DNA of 64,000 nucleotides, taken from the NCBI GenBank assembly GCA_947034885.2, contig OX344758.2, positions 4,466,501-4,530,500 of the forward strand. Reading direction: 5' to 3'. Source of the DNA: Thuidium tamariscinum (taxonomy: Eukaryota; Streptophyta; Bryopsida; Hypnales; Thuidiaceae). A program made the translations under genes and the position numbers. Under the pieces are notes generated by a model. It had not been told where the DNA came from and did no database searches. It saw nothing but the letters and a program-made list of their open reading frames with translations. Below, in pieces: positions 5,556 to 52,049 of this stretch. The first letter of the stretch is position 1, and each line of letters starts with the position of its first letter.

Positions 5556-5559
5556 TTAA

Positions 5560-6735
5560 CCCTTAAAGGACCAAGGCCATTTTTCTGTCAAAAACCTCTC
5601 AAAACTACCATTTCTATTGCATTCACTCAAGAAAACAAAAAATACATTTTTTAAAGAATCGAATCATTGTATCTTATACTTTAACTTGACTAAAATCATG
5701 TGGTAAAAATTTCATGAAGTTTGACCATATAGATTGGAAGTTATGAACATTCAAAGTTGGAAATACAAGTTTTTTTTAACTATGTTTACCATTTTCAGAT
5801 GACTTTGACCACCACTTGTAAAAAACATTTGTACTATAGAACTTGAATTTATAAATTTTTGTCTTGAAAAATTGAATTGAGAGTTTAAGAAAAAAATTTC
5901 ACACAAAAACACTTGATTTTCATTCTTTAAAAAATTGTTACGTAGATGTAGGTCCAAGATTGAAAGAAAAACTAAATCATTAATAACTCTAAGATGGGAT
6001 TGAAATACAATAATCCCAACGGTGAGATTGTTTTAGCAAGTAAACATAACCTTGTCTAACAATTTTTTTTGAAGAATTGTAAAAATTGCATTTAGAAATG
6101 AATCATGTAAGTTATTTTTTCAAAAAGATGTTTAGATTGCTCGAAAAAAAAGATTGTCCATACCTTTCTCATTATAAGTCCAAATAGAGTGAATCAAAGC
6201 ATTACATGTAGGCAAAAATATATTATTCAAAAAAAAATTTGAAAATTTTAATTTTGACTTTTTGCAAAAAAATAACATTAGAGGAGATTCGAGGGCAACG
6301 GGAGACTGTGAGTTCCCGAAGCTGTGAACGCAGGAATCTGTCGCAGGAATGTAGAACGGGCTTGTGCTGACGTGGTCGAGAGTGTGCCATGTCACCGATT
6401 TTTTTTTTTGGAATTTTTTTTGCATTTCAGGACGAACTTTTTTAAAAAAAAATTAATTAATTACTGATCGGGAACAATTCGGGGAACAGGGCTTTTGCAA
6501 TCTCCTGTTGCCCTCGAATCTCCTCTAATGTTTTGTCTACCAAATGAAAATTTGGACTTTTTGTGGTATAACTTTTGCTCCCAATCACAAATTGAAATAC
6601 AAATTACATTCCTACGAAACTAATCAGTTTTCCTATCTTGTGAGAAAGTTTAAAAAACTTTTGCCAAAAATTGAAGTCATGGGAACCTGCTTGAAATCCA
6701 TTTTGTCGCCCAAGGGGACGATGGTCATTTAGGAG
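5560..6735. mobile_element. TTAA-flanked TIR element (copy P1), 1.18 kb
   Basis: Left end TTAA then CCCTTAAAGGACC; right end GGTCATTTAGGAG then TTAA, so the ends are inverted (CTCCTAAATGACC on the other strand). Its left part resembles the elements at 25273 and 50865 (shared run of 'AAAACTxxCATTTCTxxTxCA' type). No transposase. The MITE at 6276-6530 lies inside it, so this element is the older of the two. TTAA flanks with CCC(T) ends are the pattern of piggyBac-type elements; Sola3 also targets TTAA, so the superfamily is inferred. Confidence 0.55.
6276..6530 (+). mobile_element. MITE family M, copy M1 (nested in P1)
   Basis: Terminal inverted repeats of about 30 bases: CATTAGAGGAGATTCGAGGG at the left and its near-perfect complement ending CCTCTAATG at the right. 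The 255-bp element has a GC-richer left part and an A/T-homopolymer right part. It contains an internal imperfect palindrome, ACGTGGTCGAGAGTGTGCCA, shared with the other three copies. No coding capacity. No clear target-site duplication was found. Confidence 0.8.
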
Positions 6736-6875
6736 TTAAGTACAAAGTGAAATTCTTTTGATCCAAAACTACCAAGACAAGGATTTTATGTTTAATTTTT
6801 TGAGATAGCATAACTTGAGATCTTGAGTCTAGGTGATGAGGTTGTTTTCAATCATTTTGGGAGATGTTGAATATG

Positions 6876-25268: not shown

Positions 25269-25272
25269 TTAA

Positions 25273-26204
25273 CCCCTAAAGGTTTTTGACTATGTTTTCA
25301 CCAAAAATGCTCCAAAACTGTCATTTCTAATACAAGTGCAATTTTTTTTCTTAAAACACATTTTTGACTCATGAAACCGTAGGATCTTGTAGTCAGGTGG
25401 TTTGTAAACAAGTGGAAAAAATTTCAGAAATTTCCACCGTGTAGATTGCAAGATATAAGCATTTGAATTGACAAAAATTGTTTTTTTATCCCTGCGAAAA
25501 TCTTGGCAGCTGCACTTCACAAGGTCACATTTGTGTGAAAAAAAATTCAAAATGGTGGTTACTCTTTGAATTCATACTTCAATGCAAGTTGGCTACATTC
25601 TCAAAAAAATTCAAACCATTTGGAATTGTACAACATATAGGAAAAAATAAGTAAGCAGAAAGAAGTAAAAAATGAGCCAAAATACTAAATTGTGAACATT
25701 TTATTCATAGAATTGAAAATTTTCAATCCCAATGGTTAAAATGTTGTTATAAACAATCTACACCTTCTATTTTTATTTTTTTCCAAAAATATAAAAAATT
25801 GAATTAAACTTTTTTTGCACTATAGAGATTCTATAACTAGCCGCAAACTACCCCAAACTCAAAATCTTCATAACTTTTGACTCATTGATTGGAATGGATT
25901 GATTCAGAGCTTCCCATGTCTTTATAAATCTAAATAACCAATTTGAAATTTCACTTTTTAAAAAACATTTTTTTTGAAGAAGTTTTTTCAGCTGCCCGGA
26001 CTGCCCGTCGAGTAAAGAAAACAACATATCTTGCCATAACTTTTTAACCATGAAGTCAAAAGTTATGAAAATTGTCGAGCCTTAAAGATACTCTTTGGGC
26101 ACACATTGTATTAAAATTTTTAAGAAAAGAAATAAAAATTCCATCGGTAGTGAGTTGCCCAAAAAATTTATAATCTCAAAAAACAATATTCAGGGCTTTA
26201 GGGG
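25273..26204. mobile_element. TTAA-flanked TIR element (copy P2), 0.93 kb
   Basis: Flanked on both sides by TTAA (25269-25272 and 26205-26208). Ends CCCCTAAAGG and (complement of) CCCCTAAAGCCC. The interior matches P3 at 50865 over most of its length, for example TTTTTGACTATGTTTTCACC at the left. No transposase; the open frames inside are AT-driven. The best-preserved copy of the long TTAA family here. Confidence 0.65.
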
Positions 26205-26223
26205 TTAAATAACTATTGATGTA

Positions 26224-28097: not shown

Positions 28098-28990
28098 GAA
28101 TCCCTTAAGTTCCTTGAAAACTTGATTATGTTTTCACCAAAAACACTCTAAAACTTCTATTTCTAATACAAGTACCAAATTTTGAAAAAGAAACCTATTG
28201 GTGGACACATGTGTTTATAAGGTATATCAATCTATTACTAGCATTGTTTGCAATTTGACTATCTCAGGGTCAATTCCAAGAGGGATACATATTTTTTTTA
28301 GAGGTGTGTGCATGTTTCACAAATCAAATTTGAGTGGAAATATGATTTTCGATCAAAATTGTAATTTCTGTGAATTTTTGAAGTATTCAACCCTAAATTA
28401 CAAAAGTGGCTATGATTAGGGTCATAAATGCCTAATAACAATCTATAACCTTCTTCTTATATTTGAATAAGCATCTAGGTATTCACCAATCGACTATTGC
28501 CACATTACTCTAAATGACATAAATGCATTGATTTTATCAGATTCCTATACAAAATTGCCTCATTTTAAGACAAATTTGGATGATGGAATGAGTGGAAATG
28601 GGAATAAATATAGGGTGATGGAAAATGGTTGTAGACAAAACTAGGTTAGTCTACCTTAGAATCTTGGAATTTGCTAACTTGAGAACATGTGATAAAAAGT
28701 TTAGAAATTTCCACCTCATGGATTGTTATACTTGAGATTTCAAATTAATTCACAAAAGTCCTTTTCTTTGCCTTCCAAAAAATCAGGTAGCTACACTTGA
28801 TAAGCTCACATTAGAAACTTGCAAAGTTTGCAATACTTATCATATTGCATAAAACAAATATTTCCATGAAGACAATGATGATGATTAAGACTATGCTAAA
28901 AATATTTTAAAATGTTTCCAAATTCCAAACTCACTGTAGCCTACCAAAAACACAAAATTTTGTTCTCATCCATAAAATGCTTTTGGAGTT
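28098..28990. repeat. Diverged relative of the long TTAA element
   Basis: From about 28098 (CCCTTAAGTTCC) the sequence follows P2 and P3 (ATTATGTTTTCACCAAAAAC, TTCTAATACAAGTACCAA). Neither TTAA flank is preserved and the right limit is unclear. Probably an old, degraded insertion. Confidence 0.4.
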
Positions 28991-41715: not shown

Positions 41716-43047
41716 TGAGCTCAAACTTTGAAAAATCCCTTAAACTTGAATATCAACTAGACTTTTGGACAAGTTGTGTACATTCCAAAATGTGTAGAAT
41801 ACTAGCAAGACATTGTAATACTAAATGGAATTGAAAATTGTGAATTGACAAGGACATACTCTAAAACACCAATTTTTTATGGGGGAAATATTTGTATAAT
41901 AAACAACTCATTTGTAAAAAATGGTAGTGATCTCTATGCAATATGACTACAAAAACCCTAACCAACAAATCACTTGAATGAAAGTGATCAATATAAAGAG
42001 TTGAAGGCATCTATGGCATTCCATTATTTGATACTTTGACTTGGGGGGTGGTGGGGGGTGGGTAAGCATAATGTATTGCACTTGTCTACAATTTTTGTTT
42101 TAAGTTTATTCAATTAAGGTTAGCATCCAAGAATGTGCCACTAATCTAAAACCACCACCATCACTTTGTACATATTTTTAAAATCAATGTGTACCTATGT
42201 AGAAGAAACAATTTTAGAACTTCTATTGAAAAAAACTTTGGCCCTTCAAAAAATTTGTATACTATCCAAATGTTTTGTTATTTTGTGTATAGAAATATCT
42301 TTTTTCTAGCCAACAAGAAACTATAAAAATTTGGTTAGTCTAATAATAATAACTAGGCATAGTAGTAAAAAGTGGTGACCTAGAGGTGTCCACCTCTATA
42401 TTTTCAAGTTCTAAATTTTTTTTCATATAACTTTTTATATATCTGCTAAGCCATTTGTAAAATTGCAAAATCACACTGACGATGCTCTCATTACTATAAT
42501 TATACATCCTATAGTAGTCAAAAGATACATTATGAATACCTAGATAATGATCCCATTATAGTTTGGGGGTTCTCAATAAATGAAATTTGGACCACAAATA
42601 ATGTCTGAGGTAATGGTAATGGAGTGATTAGTTATTACACTAAGAATTCTCACCTTCTGAATGCAAATTCACTATAGGAAGTGATTTTTTAGGACTTCAT
42701 ACTATGGCTATATTAGAAAATTAGGTGAAAAAGATGAGCATTAAGGATACAATTTTTCTTGATTTGGAGGTAGTTGAGAGACTCTTTTGGGTAGGACACT
42801 TCAAAAATTCATAACAAATTAATATGTTCTTGAAAAGATATAATTTCAATTGTTCTTATTGTTTTCACACTTGTCTTTGAGTGGGAATTCTTCTTAAAAA
42901 ATACAATTTAATGGCATGACAACCACTTCTAACTTTAGCTATGATAGATTATTCTTCCTTAACCCTTAAAACGATTCTATACCCATTTTTCAGCCAATGA
43001 ATGACAAATAATCTTTTTCTTTAGGATTGAAGTGCAATTGTTCATTC
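41716..43047. other. AT-rich spacer with a G-run
   Basis: No gene. A G-rich run (GGGGGGTGGTGGGGGGTGGG, about 42044-42063) could form a G-quadruplex on the plus strand. A solitary TTAACCCTTAAAACG at about 42960 may be a lone end of the TTAA family. Confidence 0.4.
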
Positions 43048-43051
43048 TTAA

Positions 43052-43272
43052 CCTTGGAAGGACACAAGGGGTCCTGTGGAATTCATCATTTCTAAAATTG
43101 TGGGAATCATTGGTAATAAAATATTCAAAAAAACTCATTTGAAATCAAAGAACTATAGAAGATCTTTACTTTTCACTCCTAAAACTGAAGGTGAGTGATT
43201 GCATTATTGTTTTACATCCAAGAATTCCTTGTCATCCATTGAACCTCTTTAGTCCTCTGCCGCGTTCCAGGG
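43052..43272 (+). mobile_element. Short TTAA-flanked MITE (copy P5), 221 bp
   Basis: Flanked by TTAA on both sides (43048-43051, 43273-43276). Starts CCTTGGAAGGACACAAGGGG and ends TTCCAGGG. Its interior aligns with P4 at 50197 throughout (GTGGGAATCATTGGTAATAA, TGTAGAAGATCT-like blocks). Non-coding. Confidence 0.7.
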
Positions 43273-43396
43273 TTAAAATTCTGTGTAGAAAGGGGGGATC
43301 ATTCACAATAATTTGACCTCCAATGAGCACTTTTGTTTTTTTTAAAGTAGATGATGGCAAAAGAGATGGTTTCTACATGCACCAGCCAAGTGTTAA

Positions 43397-45450: not shown

Positions 45451-48400
45451 GGTCTGTCTATGGCCTGTCGGGTTGCGCACAGTCCAGTCGTGAAGCTCTG
45501 GACGGCTAGCCAGTCGATCTGCAAGCAAGTGCCGTTGGAGCGATGGAACGGGATCAAGGCTTGGAGAAACGTGAGAGTCTCGGTGATTGCTGAAGGGGCA
45601 TGCTGGCGAATTTGGATGGCCGCCGGGGCTTTGAAGCAGCTTCGGAGTTCGCCCACGAGGTCAGTATTACTCTCACTGCGCTCCAGCGTCACGCATTGCA
45701 GGTGGATTTCGATTTCGGTTTCAAATTCGATTCATTGCCTTATCCTAGGGCCCGATGGGATAGGGCTAATGTAAAGTCTCACTGTAAGGGAGACGTTCCA
45801 TTCACCATACGGTTGAACTTTGAACCTTTTCTTACAAAAGTCTAGAAACTTGCACCATCTTAAACTTTGCACATTTATTTTGTGTTAAACTAAGAATCAA
45901 TTTCAAAAGACTAGACGTCAACAGATGAAGTATTTACACTTTTTAGCACAAATCGAAGCTCGCATGCATGGTCAATGGAGCCTCTAATGGTACTCTATGG
46001 TCAATGGGACCTCTACCTTGTGTCATTTTGCGGTGCACTCTGACATCAAGTATATGAGCAGAAGCTCATAATCGTCATTATTAAGTGAACCAGGAAATGC
46101 CGCTCTATCAGGGTTCGCATTTTTTCTAGGAATCGTCAGTGTGCGAAAAGAGGGGAATGCGTTGGATATGGTGATATGCCGATCAGCCTTGCGTGTGGCG
46201 TGTGCTTGTAATCTGGAAATTAAAATTGGCGGACGTGGAATGGTCATGCAGGTCGTCAGGCTGGACAGGAGTAACAGTGGTGTCGTCGTTATGGGTGGCG
46301 TATTCTGGACCAGCGGTCGCAGGCGAGGTCTTGGCAGACCCCAGGCGGCTTTTCGGAGGATCTGCCGCTCTGGAGGAGAGTGAGCGGCTTCACATCAAAC
46401 CCAATGACGAGGACGTACACGTCGTCTCCCGTAAGCTACTCCGCTGTTCTCCATTCTGATGAGTTCCCTTGTCCGCCACAATGATCATGATCTCGCACTC
46501 TGGATGGTATCACTGTTAGGGCACCAGGGCGTTAATTTAATTCGAGTGATGTAGTCAATGTTTCAAGTACTGTAAAGTCTCCATTCACCATACAGGAAGG
46601 GAGTGGCTCCATTTACCACTCAGGGGAACCTGGAACCTTCCCGTACAACAATCTAGAATTTGACACCATCTAAAAATTTGCACATATGATTTGGATTAAG
46701 CTCAATATCAATTGGAAAAAATGAATTGTCAATAAAAGAGGGGTTTTCACACGTAGCACAAAATCTAAGCTCACTTGTATGGTGCGTGGAGCCTCTAATG
46801 TACTGTATGGTTAATGGAGTGTCTACCTTACCATTGTACGTGAATAGACCGGGTTTGTACCGGAGACGTTGCCATGCCGCCCAAGATTAAGTCCTACGTC
46901 CTGTCGGTGAGAGTCCTACAGGCGGGTTATGACGCAAGTCCGTGATGGAGGGCGTTAAACTGCGATTCCTCGTTCAGTACCTTTCAGAGTTCACGTTCAT
47001 CGGAATCCGGTTCATTTTAATGCTTTCCTGCCTGCAATTCGCAATGTATCCTACGGTTAATGGTTGCATAAATGCTGGCGCAAGACCCGTTTCATTTTCA
47101 ATTCTTGTGCATAGGACGAGTGAATGAACAATTCTGCGAGAATTCAGAGTATCTAATGGGAATGCACGTCCATTTGCAGAAGAGGGCGAGTGCAGGAACT
47201 CCGAGGGAGTGGGTGATGGGGAAGCTCATCCTGAGGTGTCGCCCACTGGTCGACACCACCTGAAGGATGTTCTGGCAGTTCTTCGGACGGTGAAGACCAA
47301 ACAGGAGATGGCGGAGAAACTTTCGCCTTTCGTGGGAAAACTGTCGCCGCAAGATGCGACGTTGATATTCAAAATGATGTATAATAGACAGGTATCCGTG
47401 GACTTTTACAAATGGGTGAAGTCGCAGGCCGGGTTTGAACCCCACTTCCACTTCTACGTCGCTTTCGCCCACTGCCTGATGAGGGTCCAAAAGTGGGTAG
47501 CTCTAGAAATCCTAGTGGACGAGATGATCGAGAACAAGCTGGCGCCGGACTTGAAGTTCTACGCCCAAGTGATCCGTGAGTCCATCAATGCCGGTCGTTT
47601 CCAGACAGCCGAGAGGTGGTTGTCCCGGATGCAGTTGCAAGGGTGCGCTCCCGACACCATCATCTACAACATTTTGATTTTAGAGTATGGAAAGAGAGGC
47701 CACTTCAGCCAAGCGATGAGGTACTTCGGTCAATTGAAGAGAGAGGGTCTTGTGGCCGATGGTGGCACATACTCTGCAGCTCTGAGCGCGTGTCGTAAGG
47801 CTGGGAATCTGGAGAAGGGGTCGGCCATCGTAGAGGAGATGAAGGAAGCTGGACAGAAACTGGACCAAGTGTCTTATAGCATCTTGATCGACATGTTTGG
47901 GAAGGCCGGTCGTTTGGAGGATGCTGCATCCATGTTCCGGGAACTCCAGGTATTGTGGAGCTGGGGAGAGCGAGTGATCTGTTTTTGTTTGTGATTGGCG
48001 TACTGAGGCTGTAATATTTGTGTTCCGCTCTGCTTGATCTCTGAATGGACGTTGGCGCTGATTATGAGTTGGTGTCGGTATTGTCGATAGTTTTCCACAT
48101 GAGTAGTGAATTTCTGCATGTCGGCTGGTATCCGAGTATCTTCTGTTGTTTGTGTGATGAATGTAAAGCTGTTAATAGCGTGTCTGTGGTTGACTTGCAT
48201 TGTCAGCTTCTGTGATATTTGTGCAGGATTTGGATCATGTATGAGGGACAGTTGGGTGCGAGGTGGTGTGTCCGGTGAGAGCAAGTCGTTGTATCTGAGA
48301 TGAGGTGTGTGGTTTTGTGCAGACATCTGGTTATCTGCCTGATGTAGTGGCGTACAACACTCTGATCCACGCTTTTGGGAGGGCGGGTATGGTGGATCAG

Positions 48401-49372
48401 GCCACTTTGGCGTTTCAGGAGGCCCAGCAGGCCGGATGTCTAGGAGATCCTATCATCTTTTACACCACCATTCAGGTGTATGCCAAGGCCGGTATGTCGG
48501 AGCAAGCTCTCCAGGTTCTGAAGTTGATGAAGGACCTGGGGATGCATCCGAATGAACTTGGATATGGCAGCGTGCTGAACGCTTTCATGAGAGCCGGTTC
48601 CCCTGTGGGCGCCATCGATCTGTTTGAGGAGATGCAGGCTTCTAAGTCTTGGATCAGCGAGAGCACTTTCATCACCATGCTGAACGTATACTCGAAGGCG
48701 GGTTTCCATTCCGCTGCAGAGGAGTTGCTGGTGAAGATGAGGACGCGTGGTTTCCGTGGGAACATCGTGGCGTACAGCACTTTGATCGACATGTATGGGA
48801 AAGTGGGCAAGATTCAGGATGCGATGCGTTTGTTTTGTGCGATGAAGCAGAACGGGTGCAAGGGGAACTTGGTGGTGTACAACACGATGCTGGACATGTA
48901 CGGGAAGGCGGGTCGGATCAATGACGCTGAGCGTCTGTTGGTGGAGCTCAAGGATTTGGGACTGTGCCCTGACACGGTGACGTACACGACTTTGATCAAC
49001 GCGTACAACCGCGTGGGTCGCTTGGATGAGTGCATCCGCAGGTTCGAGCAACACCGTGCGTCGGGTTTGAAGCTGGATCGGATCCTGGTGGCCATCATGG
49101 TGAACGTGTTCGGGAAGGCGAGGCAATACTCGAAGCTGGCGGAGTTGCTGGAGGAGCTTCCGAAATCCGGCATCCAAGCAGACGCTCGTATTCTGAAGTC
49201 TGTGGTGGAGATTTACGAGGATGGCGGTTTGTATGCGAACGCTGCGGAGCTTATGCGTAAGATCGAAGAGCTTGGACCGTTGGAGAGTAGTTCGCTGTAT
49301 AAGCCGAGTCGTTGGGTGGCCCCTACTCCTGGTAGGCGGCCTGTTGGAGCCTCTCCTGTCATAAATGTTTGA
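45436..49372 (+). CDS. P-class pentatricopeptide repeat protein, 14 PPRs
   Basis: Four-exon model with matching phases: 45436-45659, 46252-46430, 47180-47949, 48323-49372; 740 residues. Exons 3 and 4 are certain from the repeats; exons 1 and 2 rest on good donors (ACGAG/GTCAGT, TCTCCC/GTAAGC), acceptors (ATGCAG, ATTTGCAG) and phase fit. The start is either ATG 45436 or the in-frame ATG 45460. Residues 1-75 are basic with almost no acids (MACRVAHSPVVKLWTASQS), like an organelle transit peptide. Fourteen uninterrupted 35-residue P-type repeats fill residues 224-713 (for example IVAYSTLIDMYGKVGK); the intron at 47950 falls inside repeat 5. A 27-residue tail follows with no E, DYW or SMR domain. 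Such proteins bind organelle RNA in a sequence-specific way for processing, stabilisation or translation. The exact orthologue is not recognised. Confidence 0.85.
45771..46020 (+). mobile_element. MITE in PPR intron 1 (copy 1)
   Basis: Starts GTAAAGTCTC and contains TTCCATTCACCATAC; ends with CAATGGGACCTCTACCTTG. The right part, reverse-complemented, matches the left (CCATTGACCATAGAGTACCA). A second copy in the same orientation sits in intron 2. Non-coding. Confidence 0.65.
46572..46829 (+). mobile_element. MITE in PPR intron 2 (copy 2)
   Basis: Starts GTAAAGTCTCCATTCACCAT and ends ATGGAGTGTCTACCTTA; imperfect inverted ends of about 60 bases (CTCCATTAACCATACAGTAC on the other strand). Interior shared with copy 1 (AAGCTCRCWTGYATGGT, GTGGAGCCTCTAATG blocks). 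The two are independent insertions or a segment duplication. Confidence 0.7.
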
Positions 49373-50192: not shown

Positions 50193-50196
50193 TTAA

Positions 50197-50416
50197 CCCT
50201 GTAAGGACGCGGGGGGTCCCTGTGGAATTCAGCACTTCTAAAACCGTGGGAATCATTGATAGTAAAATATTCGAAAAAACTCATTTGAAGTCAAACAATT
50301 GTAGAAGATCTCCACTTTCCACTCCTAAAATGGAGGATGAATGATTGCATTTCTGTCTTACATGGGAGAATCCCTTGTAATCATCGGACCATTTTGGTCC
50401 GTAGTGTTTTTCAGGG
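50197..50416 (+). mobile_element. Short TTAA-flanked MITE (copy P4), 220 bp
   Basis: TTAA on both sides (50193-50196, 50417-50420). Ends CCCTGTAAGGACGC and TTTTTCAGGG, so the exact inverted ends are only about five bases (CCCTG). Aligns with P5 over its length (GTGGAATTCA, GTGGGAATCATTGATAGTAA). Non-coding. Confidence 0.7.
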
Positions 50417-50864
50417 TTAAATGCATTAAGCTGTTGATATCCAACTATTAGGTTCACATTTCTACATTGATTAAGTTAAATACACTTGAAATTGTCACAT
50501 CTAGGTTCTAGGTTCTAGCCCAGAATAAAGAAATGAACTATGAACACCATGATCTAGTGATGATTTATGGGACACCTTTGTTCAATATTTTGAAACTCAC
50601 AACTTGCTCCTAAAGTGTTCATAAAGTGCTCTATATTCTTCTTGATGATATCTAATAACAATAAACTAAGTTATATACTATGTTGAGGTTGCAATTAGTA
50701 GCAAATTTGGGTGTTTGTAATGAATTGTAGACCAACCTTGAAAGCTTGTGTACATACTATTGAATAGCATGAAGAGAGATTGCCTTTTCATCTTTTCAGG
50801 CATCATCCATGAAATTCATTCACTAGGATGTGGTGGATACAAGAGAAGGTAGGATAGTATTTAA

Positions 50865-52045
50865 CCCTTAAAGGTTTTTGACTATGTTTTCACCAAAACC
50901 AACGATGCTAGTATGTGAGCATGAACATGCGAGCATGTGAGCTTCTAATATGTATATACGTAGATATACTACCACCTTTGAAAGTGTTTGTAGTTAAAAT
51001 ACCTATAATATAGGTACCTATAGTATAAATATACTCTTATCATAGAAGGTTTCTATAGTATAAGCACCTATACTATAGGTGCATTATCTTTGAGGCTCAT
51101 AAGCTCACACTTCTATGCTCACATACTAGCAACCGTGCACCAAAACCATTCCAAAATTGTCATTTCTGGGACAACTACCAAATTTCAGAAAAAAAAACCA
51201 TTTTTGAATAATGTAGTTGTAGGATCTTTTAGTGAATTAGTTTGAAAAGATGTAGAAAAAATTTCAAAAATTTACGCTGTGTAGATTGCAAAATATTAGT
51301 ATTTGAAGTTACAATTATCTTTTTTTACCATTGCAAAAATCTAGGTAGCTACACTTTAGAAGGCCATATTTGTATGAAAAAATGTCTAAAATGGTGGTTC
51401 TTCTTTGATTTCATTCTTCAATTCAAGTTGTCTACATGCTTAAAAATTTTCAAATCATTTGGAATTGTACAACATGTACAAAAAAAATAGTAAGTAGAAA
51501 GCAGTAGAGAATGATTCAAAATACTAAATTGTTATCAATTTATTTATTGAATTGAAAAATACCAATTCCAATGGTTGAAATGTTGGAATAAAAAATATAC
51601 ACCCAAAGTTTTGTTCTTTTTCAAAATATTAAAAATTTAATTAAATGAAAGATTTCAAAGTTTATTTTAGAGTAGACATTCCCTAAACTTCCCACAAACT
51701 ACCTACAAACTAAATCTCCCGTAACTTTCATCTCACCAATCAAAATGAAATGATTCAAAGCTTTCCAAGTATATATAAATCTAAAAACTAATTTCAATTT
51801 TTTTTTTTTTAAAAGTGATTTTTGAAGAAGTTTATTTAGCTGGTTGGGCTGCTTATTGAGAAATGAAAACTACATATCATACAATAACTTTTGAACCATA
51901 TAGTCAAAATGTTGTGCCTTAAAACTACTCCTTGGGTACATCTTGTGTGAAGTTTTGAAAGAAAAAGAAAAGGAATACTCCATCCACAATGAGTTGCCCA
52001 ATATTGCTATCTTGCCAAAAATTGTAGTTTGATCCACTTTAGGAA
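50865..52045. mobile_element. TTAA-flanked TIR element (copy P3), with nested insertion
   Basis: TTAA at 50861-50864 and 52046-52049. Ends CCCTTAAAGG and (complement of) TTCCTAAAGTGG. After removing the nested element at 50902-51137, its sequence runs parallel to P2 (TTTTTGACTATGTTTTCACC then CCAAAATTGTCATTTCTGGG). Non-coding. Confidence 0.65.
50902..51137. mobile_element. MITE nested in P3, with 11-bp direct repeat
   Basis: Flanked by CACCAAAACCA at 50891-50901 and 51138-51148, which equals one copy of the host element's expected sequence. TIRs GCTAGTATGTGAGCATG and its complement CATACTAGC region. The 9-11-bp duplication suggests a Mutator-like origin. Interior has several palindromic CCTATAGTATA/TATACTATAGG motifs. 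Confidence 0.75.
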
Positions 52046-52049
52046 TTAA

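Follow-up and report, generated by a model that had tools for sequence, protein, structure and literature searches.

The window, that is, the whole stretch of 64,000 nucleotides from the genome of the moss Thuidium tamariscinum that was analysed, contains three long elements with TTAA on either side (P1, P2 and P3; Table 1), all three located where the first-pass annotation had placed them, as well as a PPR gene at 47209-49372. At the genome level, 27 NAC-domain exon matches, corresponding to about 14-15 genes, and 49 chlorophyll a/b-binding matches were detected. For one LHCII protein, the entries 8htu and 7xqp, presumably from Physcomitrium, scored 451 bits vs 438.6 for the seed-plant entries, and the multi-domain chain 9vfj ranked first. 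Taken by themselves, these matches clearly indicate a green plant and suggest a non-seed land plant, perhaps a bryophyte.

Table 1. TTAA-flanked elements, nested insertions and related fragments in the window (position 1 is its first letter).
Feature	Position	Strand	Remarks
P1, MITE of a ~931-bp family, with nested insertion	5556..6739	+	TTAA pair at 5556-5559/6736-6739; ends match the two termini of a piggyBac element that codes for a transposase
P1 nested insertion, 35-nt inverted ends	6274..6532		missing from 39 other scored copies
P2, MITE	25269..26208	+	932 bp between the TTAA copies; full-length match to own family profile
P2 left TTAA target copy	25269..25272		duplication seen at empty sites of family copies
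P2 right TTAA target copy	26205..26208		read from sequence
P2-family fragment	28100..28212	+	profile match E 5.8e-10
P2-family fragment	28653..28814	+	profile match E 7.1e-16
P3, diverged P2 relative, TTAA-flanked, with nested insertion	50861..52049	+	TTAA pair at 50861-50864/52046-52049; P2 profile to P3 interior, E 2.9e-155
P3 nested insertion	50899..51138 (approximate bounds)		inverted ends of 46 nt at 78%

CCC(T) ends had been ascribed to all three elements, a description that holds for both ends of P2 and for the 5' side of P1 and of P3, where the element starts with CCC, and fails on the 3' side, where P1 (CTCCTAAATGACC, as reverse complement) and P3 (TTCCTAAAG) are worn. The TIR of P2 is CCCCTAAAG, and the element carries the end CCCCTAAAGCCCTGA. 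The interior sequence said to be common to P2 and P3 was recovered at 76% over 730 bp. P1 and P3 exceed the length of their own families because each of them contains a nested insertion. The inverted ends of the insertion in P1 are 94% complementary, and the borders of that in P3 show a direct repeat, CACCAAAACCA, which would fit a target duplication of about 9-11 bp, a Mutator-like trait. Two more inward-facing TTAACCC end pairs, at 50193-50420 and 42959-43276, may be short TTAA elements; they are bare matches to a motif expected by chance about 4 times per strand.

The membership of the P1 and P2 families is far beyond chance. The search with P2 yielded 7,828 first-look candidates, of which 40 were scored, all matching over 918-940 of the 940 bp; besides the window copy, the 39 others among these best 40 of 7,828 candidates showed 92-93% identity. 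In the search with P1 the 40 scored of 7,536 first-look candidates were all copies, and the 39 other than P1 itself matched its first ~717 bp and last ~200 bp without the ~250 bp between. A 22-mer of the P2 end occurs exactly 1,042 times in 363 Mb vs 0 for the reversed pattern, and is preceded by TTAA in 926 of these 1,042 occurrences (0 for the reversed control). Among the fetched copies, which were the best-scoring ones so that divergence is understated, pairwise identity was 93-99% for P2 (median 95.5%, n = 28 including the window copy) and 88-98% for P1 (median 96.2%, n = 23), and both TTAAs were intact in 26/28 and 21/23 copies, respectively. MITE copies nested in copies of the same family were observed at C5:26777086-26778036 (L009), in the C5:21922037 region (L011) and at C5:8650922-8651874 (L010).

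The first-pass annotation had proposed that empty sites be checked for a single TTAA. From 54 elements collected, 13 showed a match across their joined flanks elsewhere in the fetched loci and 6 were inspected base by base. For five of the 6, the alignment runs through the junction and shows a single target copy: two have exactly one TTAA where the filled sites have two (L010 vs L021 and L028; L002 vs L065), and three (L009, L011 and L021) ungapped at the junction with a relative one base off TTAA (TTAT, TTCA or TTTA). The alignment of L005 is gapped. Duplication of the TTAA upon MITE insertion is the favoured reading; an insertion that duplicates TA within an invariant TTAA would leave the same pattern, and the preference for TTAA stems from the piggyBac homology described below.

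A search of the genome with PF13843 (DDE_Tnp_1_7) produced 658 candidates; 116 were scored and all 116 exceeded the cut-off, compared with 0 of 14 control genomes. The match at C7:1357340-1358488 reached 270.1 bits. Among the 116 scored loci, 11 have a 1,023-codon open frame in common, ten of them with an identical score. Two of these 11, retrieved with their flanks, are copies of an autonomous element of 5,096 bp; they are 99.96% identical (about 2 differences in 5,096), lie in unrelated flanks and have exact TTAA borders on both sides at the two sites; their ends, TTAACCCTGAAACGCCGGGC and, as reverse complement, TTAACCCCTAAACGCCGGCA, are of the TTAACCC type. The 1,009-aa transposase, read from the first ATG, matches PF13843 with E 4.9e-79, piggyBat (9c0f) with E 1.1e-27 and 6x67, which we take to be the Trichoplusia piggyBac, with E 1e-22. 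In the alignment, the three DDD aspartate motifs, which hold the catalytic residues of the transposase, are in register with those of piggyBat, and the protein displays a C-terminal Cys-rich stretch and a long N-terminal extension. In this recent piggyBac, the beginning of the frame for the 1,009-aa transposase is overlapped by a 273-codon frame at L067:5040-5861 (- strand), which may be an exon or encode a further protein. Of 20 further transposases, 16 are followed by a TTAACCC-type inverted end in the 1.8 kb fetched on their downstream side, and no such end was found over that distance for the other four (L069, L074, L079 and L087). Short inverted ends starting with CCC are present both in the MITEs and in transposase elements.

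The partner of P1 was recognized among these elements. L070, read whole, measures 5,143 bp including both TTAAs and carries a 774-codon open transposase frame with the motifs TIDE, MDNFF and GVDVAD. Positions 2-307 of the P1 profile match one end of this element over 305 bp (E 9.2e-43) and positions 789-931 match the other end over 143 bp (E 7.3e-19). As both ends are common to the two, P1 is, on end homology, a MITE of a resident piggyBac; an autonomous partner with the same ends, which the first-pass annotation had suggested looking for, has thus been found in a PF13843 element. When the P1 profile was compared with transposase 3' ends, matches were obtained for L070 (E 1.6e-41), L072 (2e-11), L081 (3.6e-8) and L084 (5.4e-5), all starting at profile position 1-2, and neither P1 nor P2 profiles gave any match in loci shuffled in two-base blocks. 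In a comparison of 40-base ends (84 comparisons), P1 was linked to L070 and L072, with 0/500 shuffles each. The L070 3' end exists in three full copies of 98-100% identity, two of them 1,211 bp (C7) and 1,215 bp (C2) beyond listed transposases and the third adjoining none listed. The explanation of a stray MITE beside a transposase was ruled out by the match of P1 to both ends and by the repeated spacing. The match of L087 to P1 (hmm 438-576) was discarded as an element end and taken as a nearby MITE piece. Another 37 places, C4:12180865 among them, represent a further MITE-like family that resembles ~300 bp of the 3' end of L070 at 75-76%.

Judged from sequence, P1, P2 and P3 are very probably (at roughly 0.94) non-autonomous piggyBac elements (MITEs). 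The piggyBac superfamily, inferred earlier from the termini, is borne out by the PF13843 transposases, the DDD alignment and the two partner ends of P1. The P1 family retains ~300 bp from one terminus and ~140 bp from the opposite terminus of a 5.1-kb piggyBac that resides in the same genome and has an open transposase frame with the DDD residues. It can be hypothesized that the MITEs arose by internal deletion of piggyBac elements. Their movement would depend on piggyBac transposases acting in trans; these enzymes are predicted to cut at the TTAA/CCC border and to join the element to a new TTAA, leaving no footprint.

With regard to P2 and P3, profile homology indicates that they are kin of P1, the P1 and P2 family profiles aligning over their full length (best E 3e-42), and that one P2 end is matched to transposase elements, namely L070 (E 2.7e-13) and the 3' end of L084 (375 bp, E 4e-12). 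The L084 end, CCCCTAAAGGTTTT, corresponds to the first 14 bases of P2 and has four exact occurrences in the genome, three of them 1,918-1,935 bp beyond listed transposases. The match to L084 and the position of this end beyond transposases lend weight to the possibility, a serious one although short of an even chance, that P1 comes from its matched piggyBac and a separate piggyBac lineage, of the L084 type, drives P2 and P3; however, the fit of P2 to the L070 end is no worse, and the full-length alignment of the P1 and P2 profiles also speaks against a separate driver. The second end of P2 was not found: L089 and L090 gave no P2 match, and the 3 kb preceding the L084-lineage transposase contained no recognizable CCC/TTAA end. 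The best P2 pairs in the 40-base end comparison (4 and 5 of 500 shuffles) are not significant given 84 comparisons. The match of L076 to P2 was rejected as an element end and taken as a nearby MITE piece. Under the piggyBac reading of the three elements, the piggyBac lineage that moved P2 and P3 would be either that of P1 or a sister to it.

Sola3 and Kolobok also target TTAA, and superfamilies are not separable by TTAA alone. That the elements belong to one of these two is nevertheless highly improbable: P1 has its two ends in common with a PF13843 piggyBac element, and its profile matches the 3' ends of four transposase elements. This assignment, largely refuted by the partner ends of P1, was set aside on end and target evidence. 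Less probable still is that the elements are PIF/Harbinger (Tourist-type) MITEs, a common plant type according to the available part of PMC10004981, whose 3-bp TTA/TAA duplication was misread as TTAA, since no such duplication was found, most copies being flanked at either end by all four bases of TTAA, each of the two cleanest empty sites showing one TTAA and the P1 partner ends being piggyBac, and this option was likewise set aside on target and end evidence.

The elements are alike with known members of the piggyBac superfamily (piggyBat 9c0f; 6x67) in the DDE_Tnp_1_7 domain, the DDD aspartates, the TTAA targets, the inverted ends starting with CCC and the C-terminal Cys-rich stretch, and differ from the known superfamily in that many diverged lineages occur within one plant genome. 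Animal members show TTAA duplication and CCCTT-type 5' motifs, as described in the accessible text of PMC10813416; compared with the 2,472-bp piggyBac given there, both the elements (5.1 kb) and their proteins (1,009 aa, with the long N-terminal extension) are longer here. Animal piggyBac-type MITEs, such as those of coral (PMC2872659), are likewise described as non-coding, TTAA-flanked and of high copy number, whereas in the present case the host is a plant, the MITEs are ~930 bp long and the partner element resides in the same genome.

The occurrence of piggyBac in land plants is already known, which softens the earlier view that land-plant piggyBac-type MITEs would be unusual. In the portions available of the respective sources, PiggyBac is among the superfamilies found in all groups studied, land plants included (PMC4438587), the fern Ceratopteris has 1,230 PiggyBac repeats (PMC6890710), angiosperm MITE superfamilies include PiggyBac with families assigned by TIR/TSD (PMC10004981), PiggyBac is listed for plants (PMC10794571) and one 75-bp PiggyBac entry appears (PMC8319324). 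The word piggyBac is absent from the land-plant review PMC9033089. The moss paper PMC10619864 was discarded as a source, having matched via the word piggybacking only, and no title on piggyBac in a bryophyte was present among the literature matches listed. The plant catalogues (PMC4438587, PMC6890710, PMC10004981) use the same superfamily name and, in their accessible parts, offer labels, whereas the present analysis links the transposase with ends, targets and recent copies; the case is notable for its scale and recent activity.

There is an even chance that the native piggyBac population of this non-seed land plant is large, diverse and still moving, with related elements feeding MITE families. 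The still-moving reading is suggested by the shared 1,023-codon frames, the ~2 differences in 5,096 and the thousands of first-look MITE candidates; if true, present-day activity might here be demonstrated for the first time in a piggyBac native to a land plant. To judge from the accessible parts of the literature, research on piggyBac and its applications have centred on animal cells, and in plants it figures chiefly in catalogue entries. Near-identical copies with open frames, together with matching MITEs, constitute a natural plant system for the study of how a transposon with seamless excision is tolerated, controlled and spread. The same system bears on horizontal acquisition vs retention from an alga-like ancestor, and may possibly provide a plant-adapted transposase for tagging.
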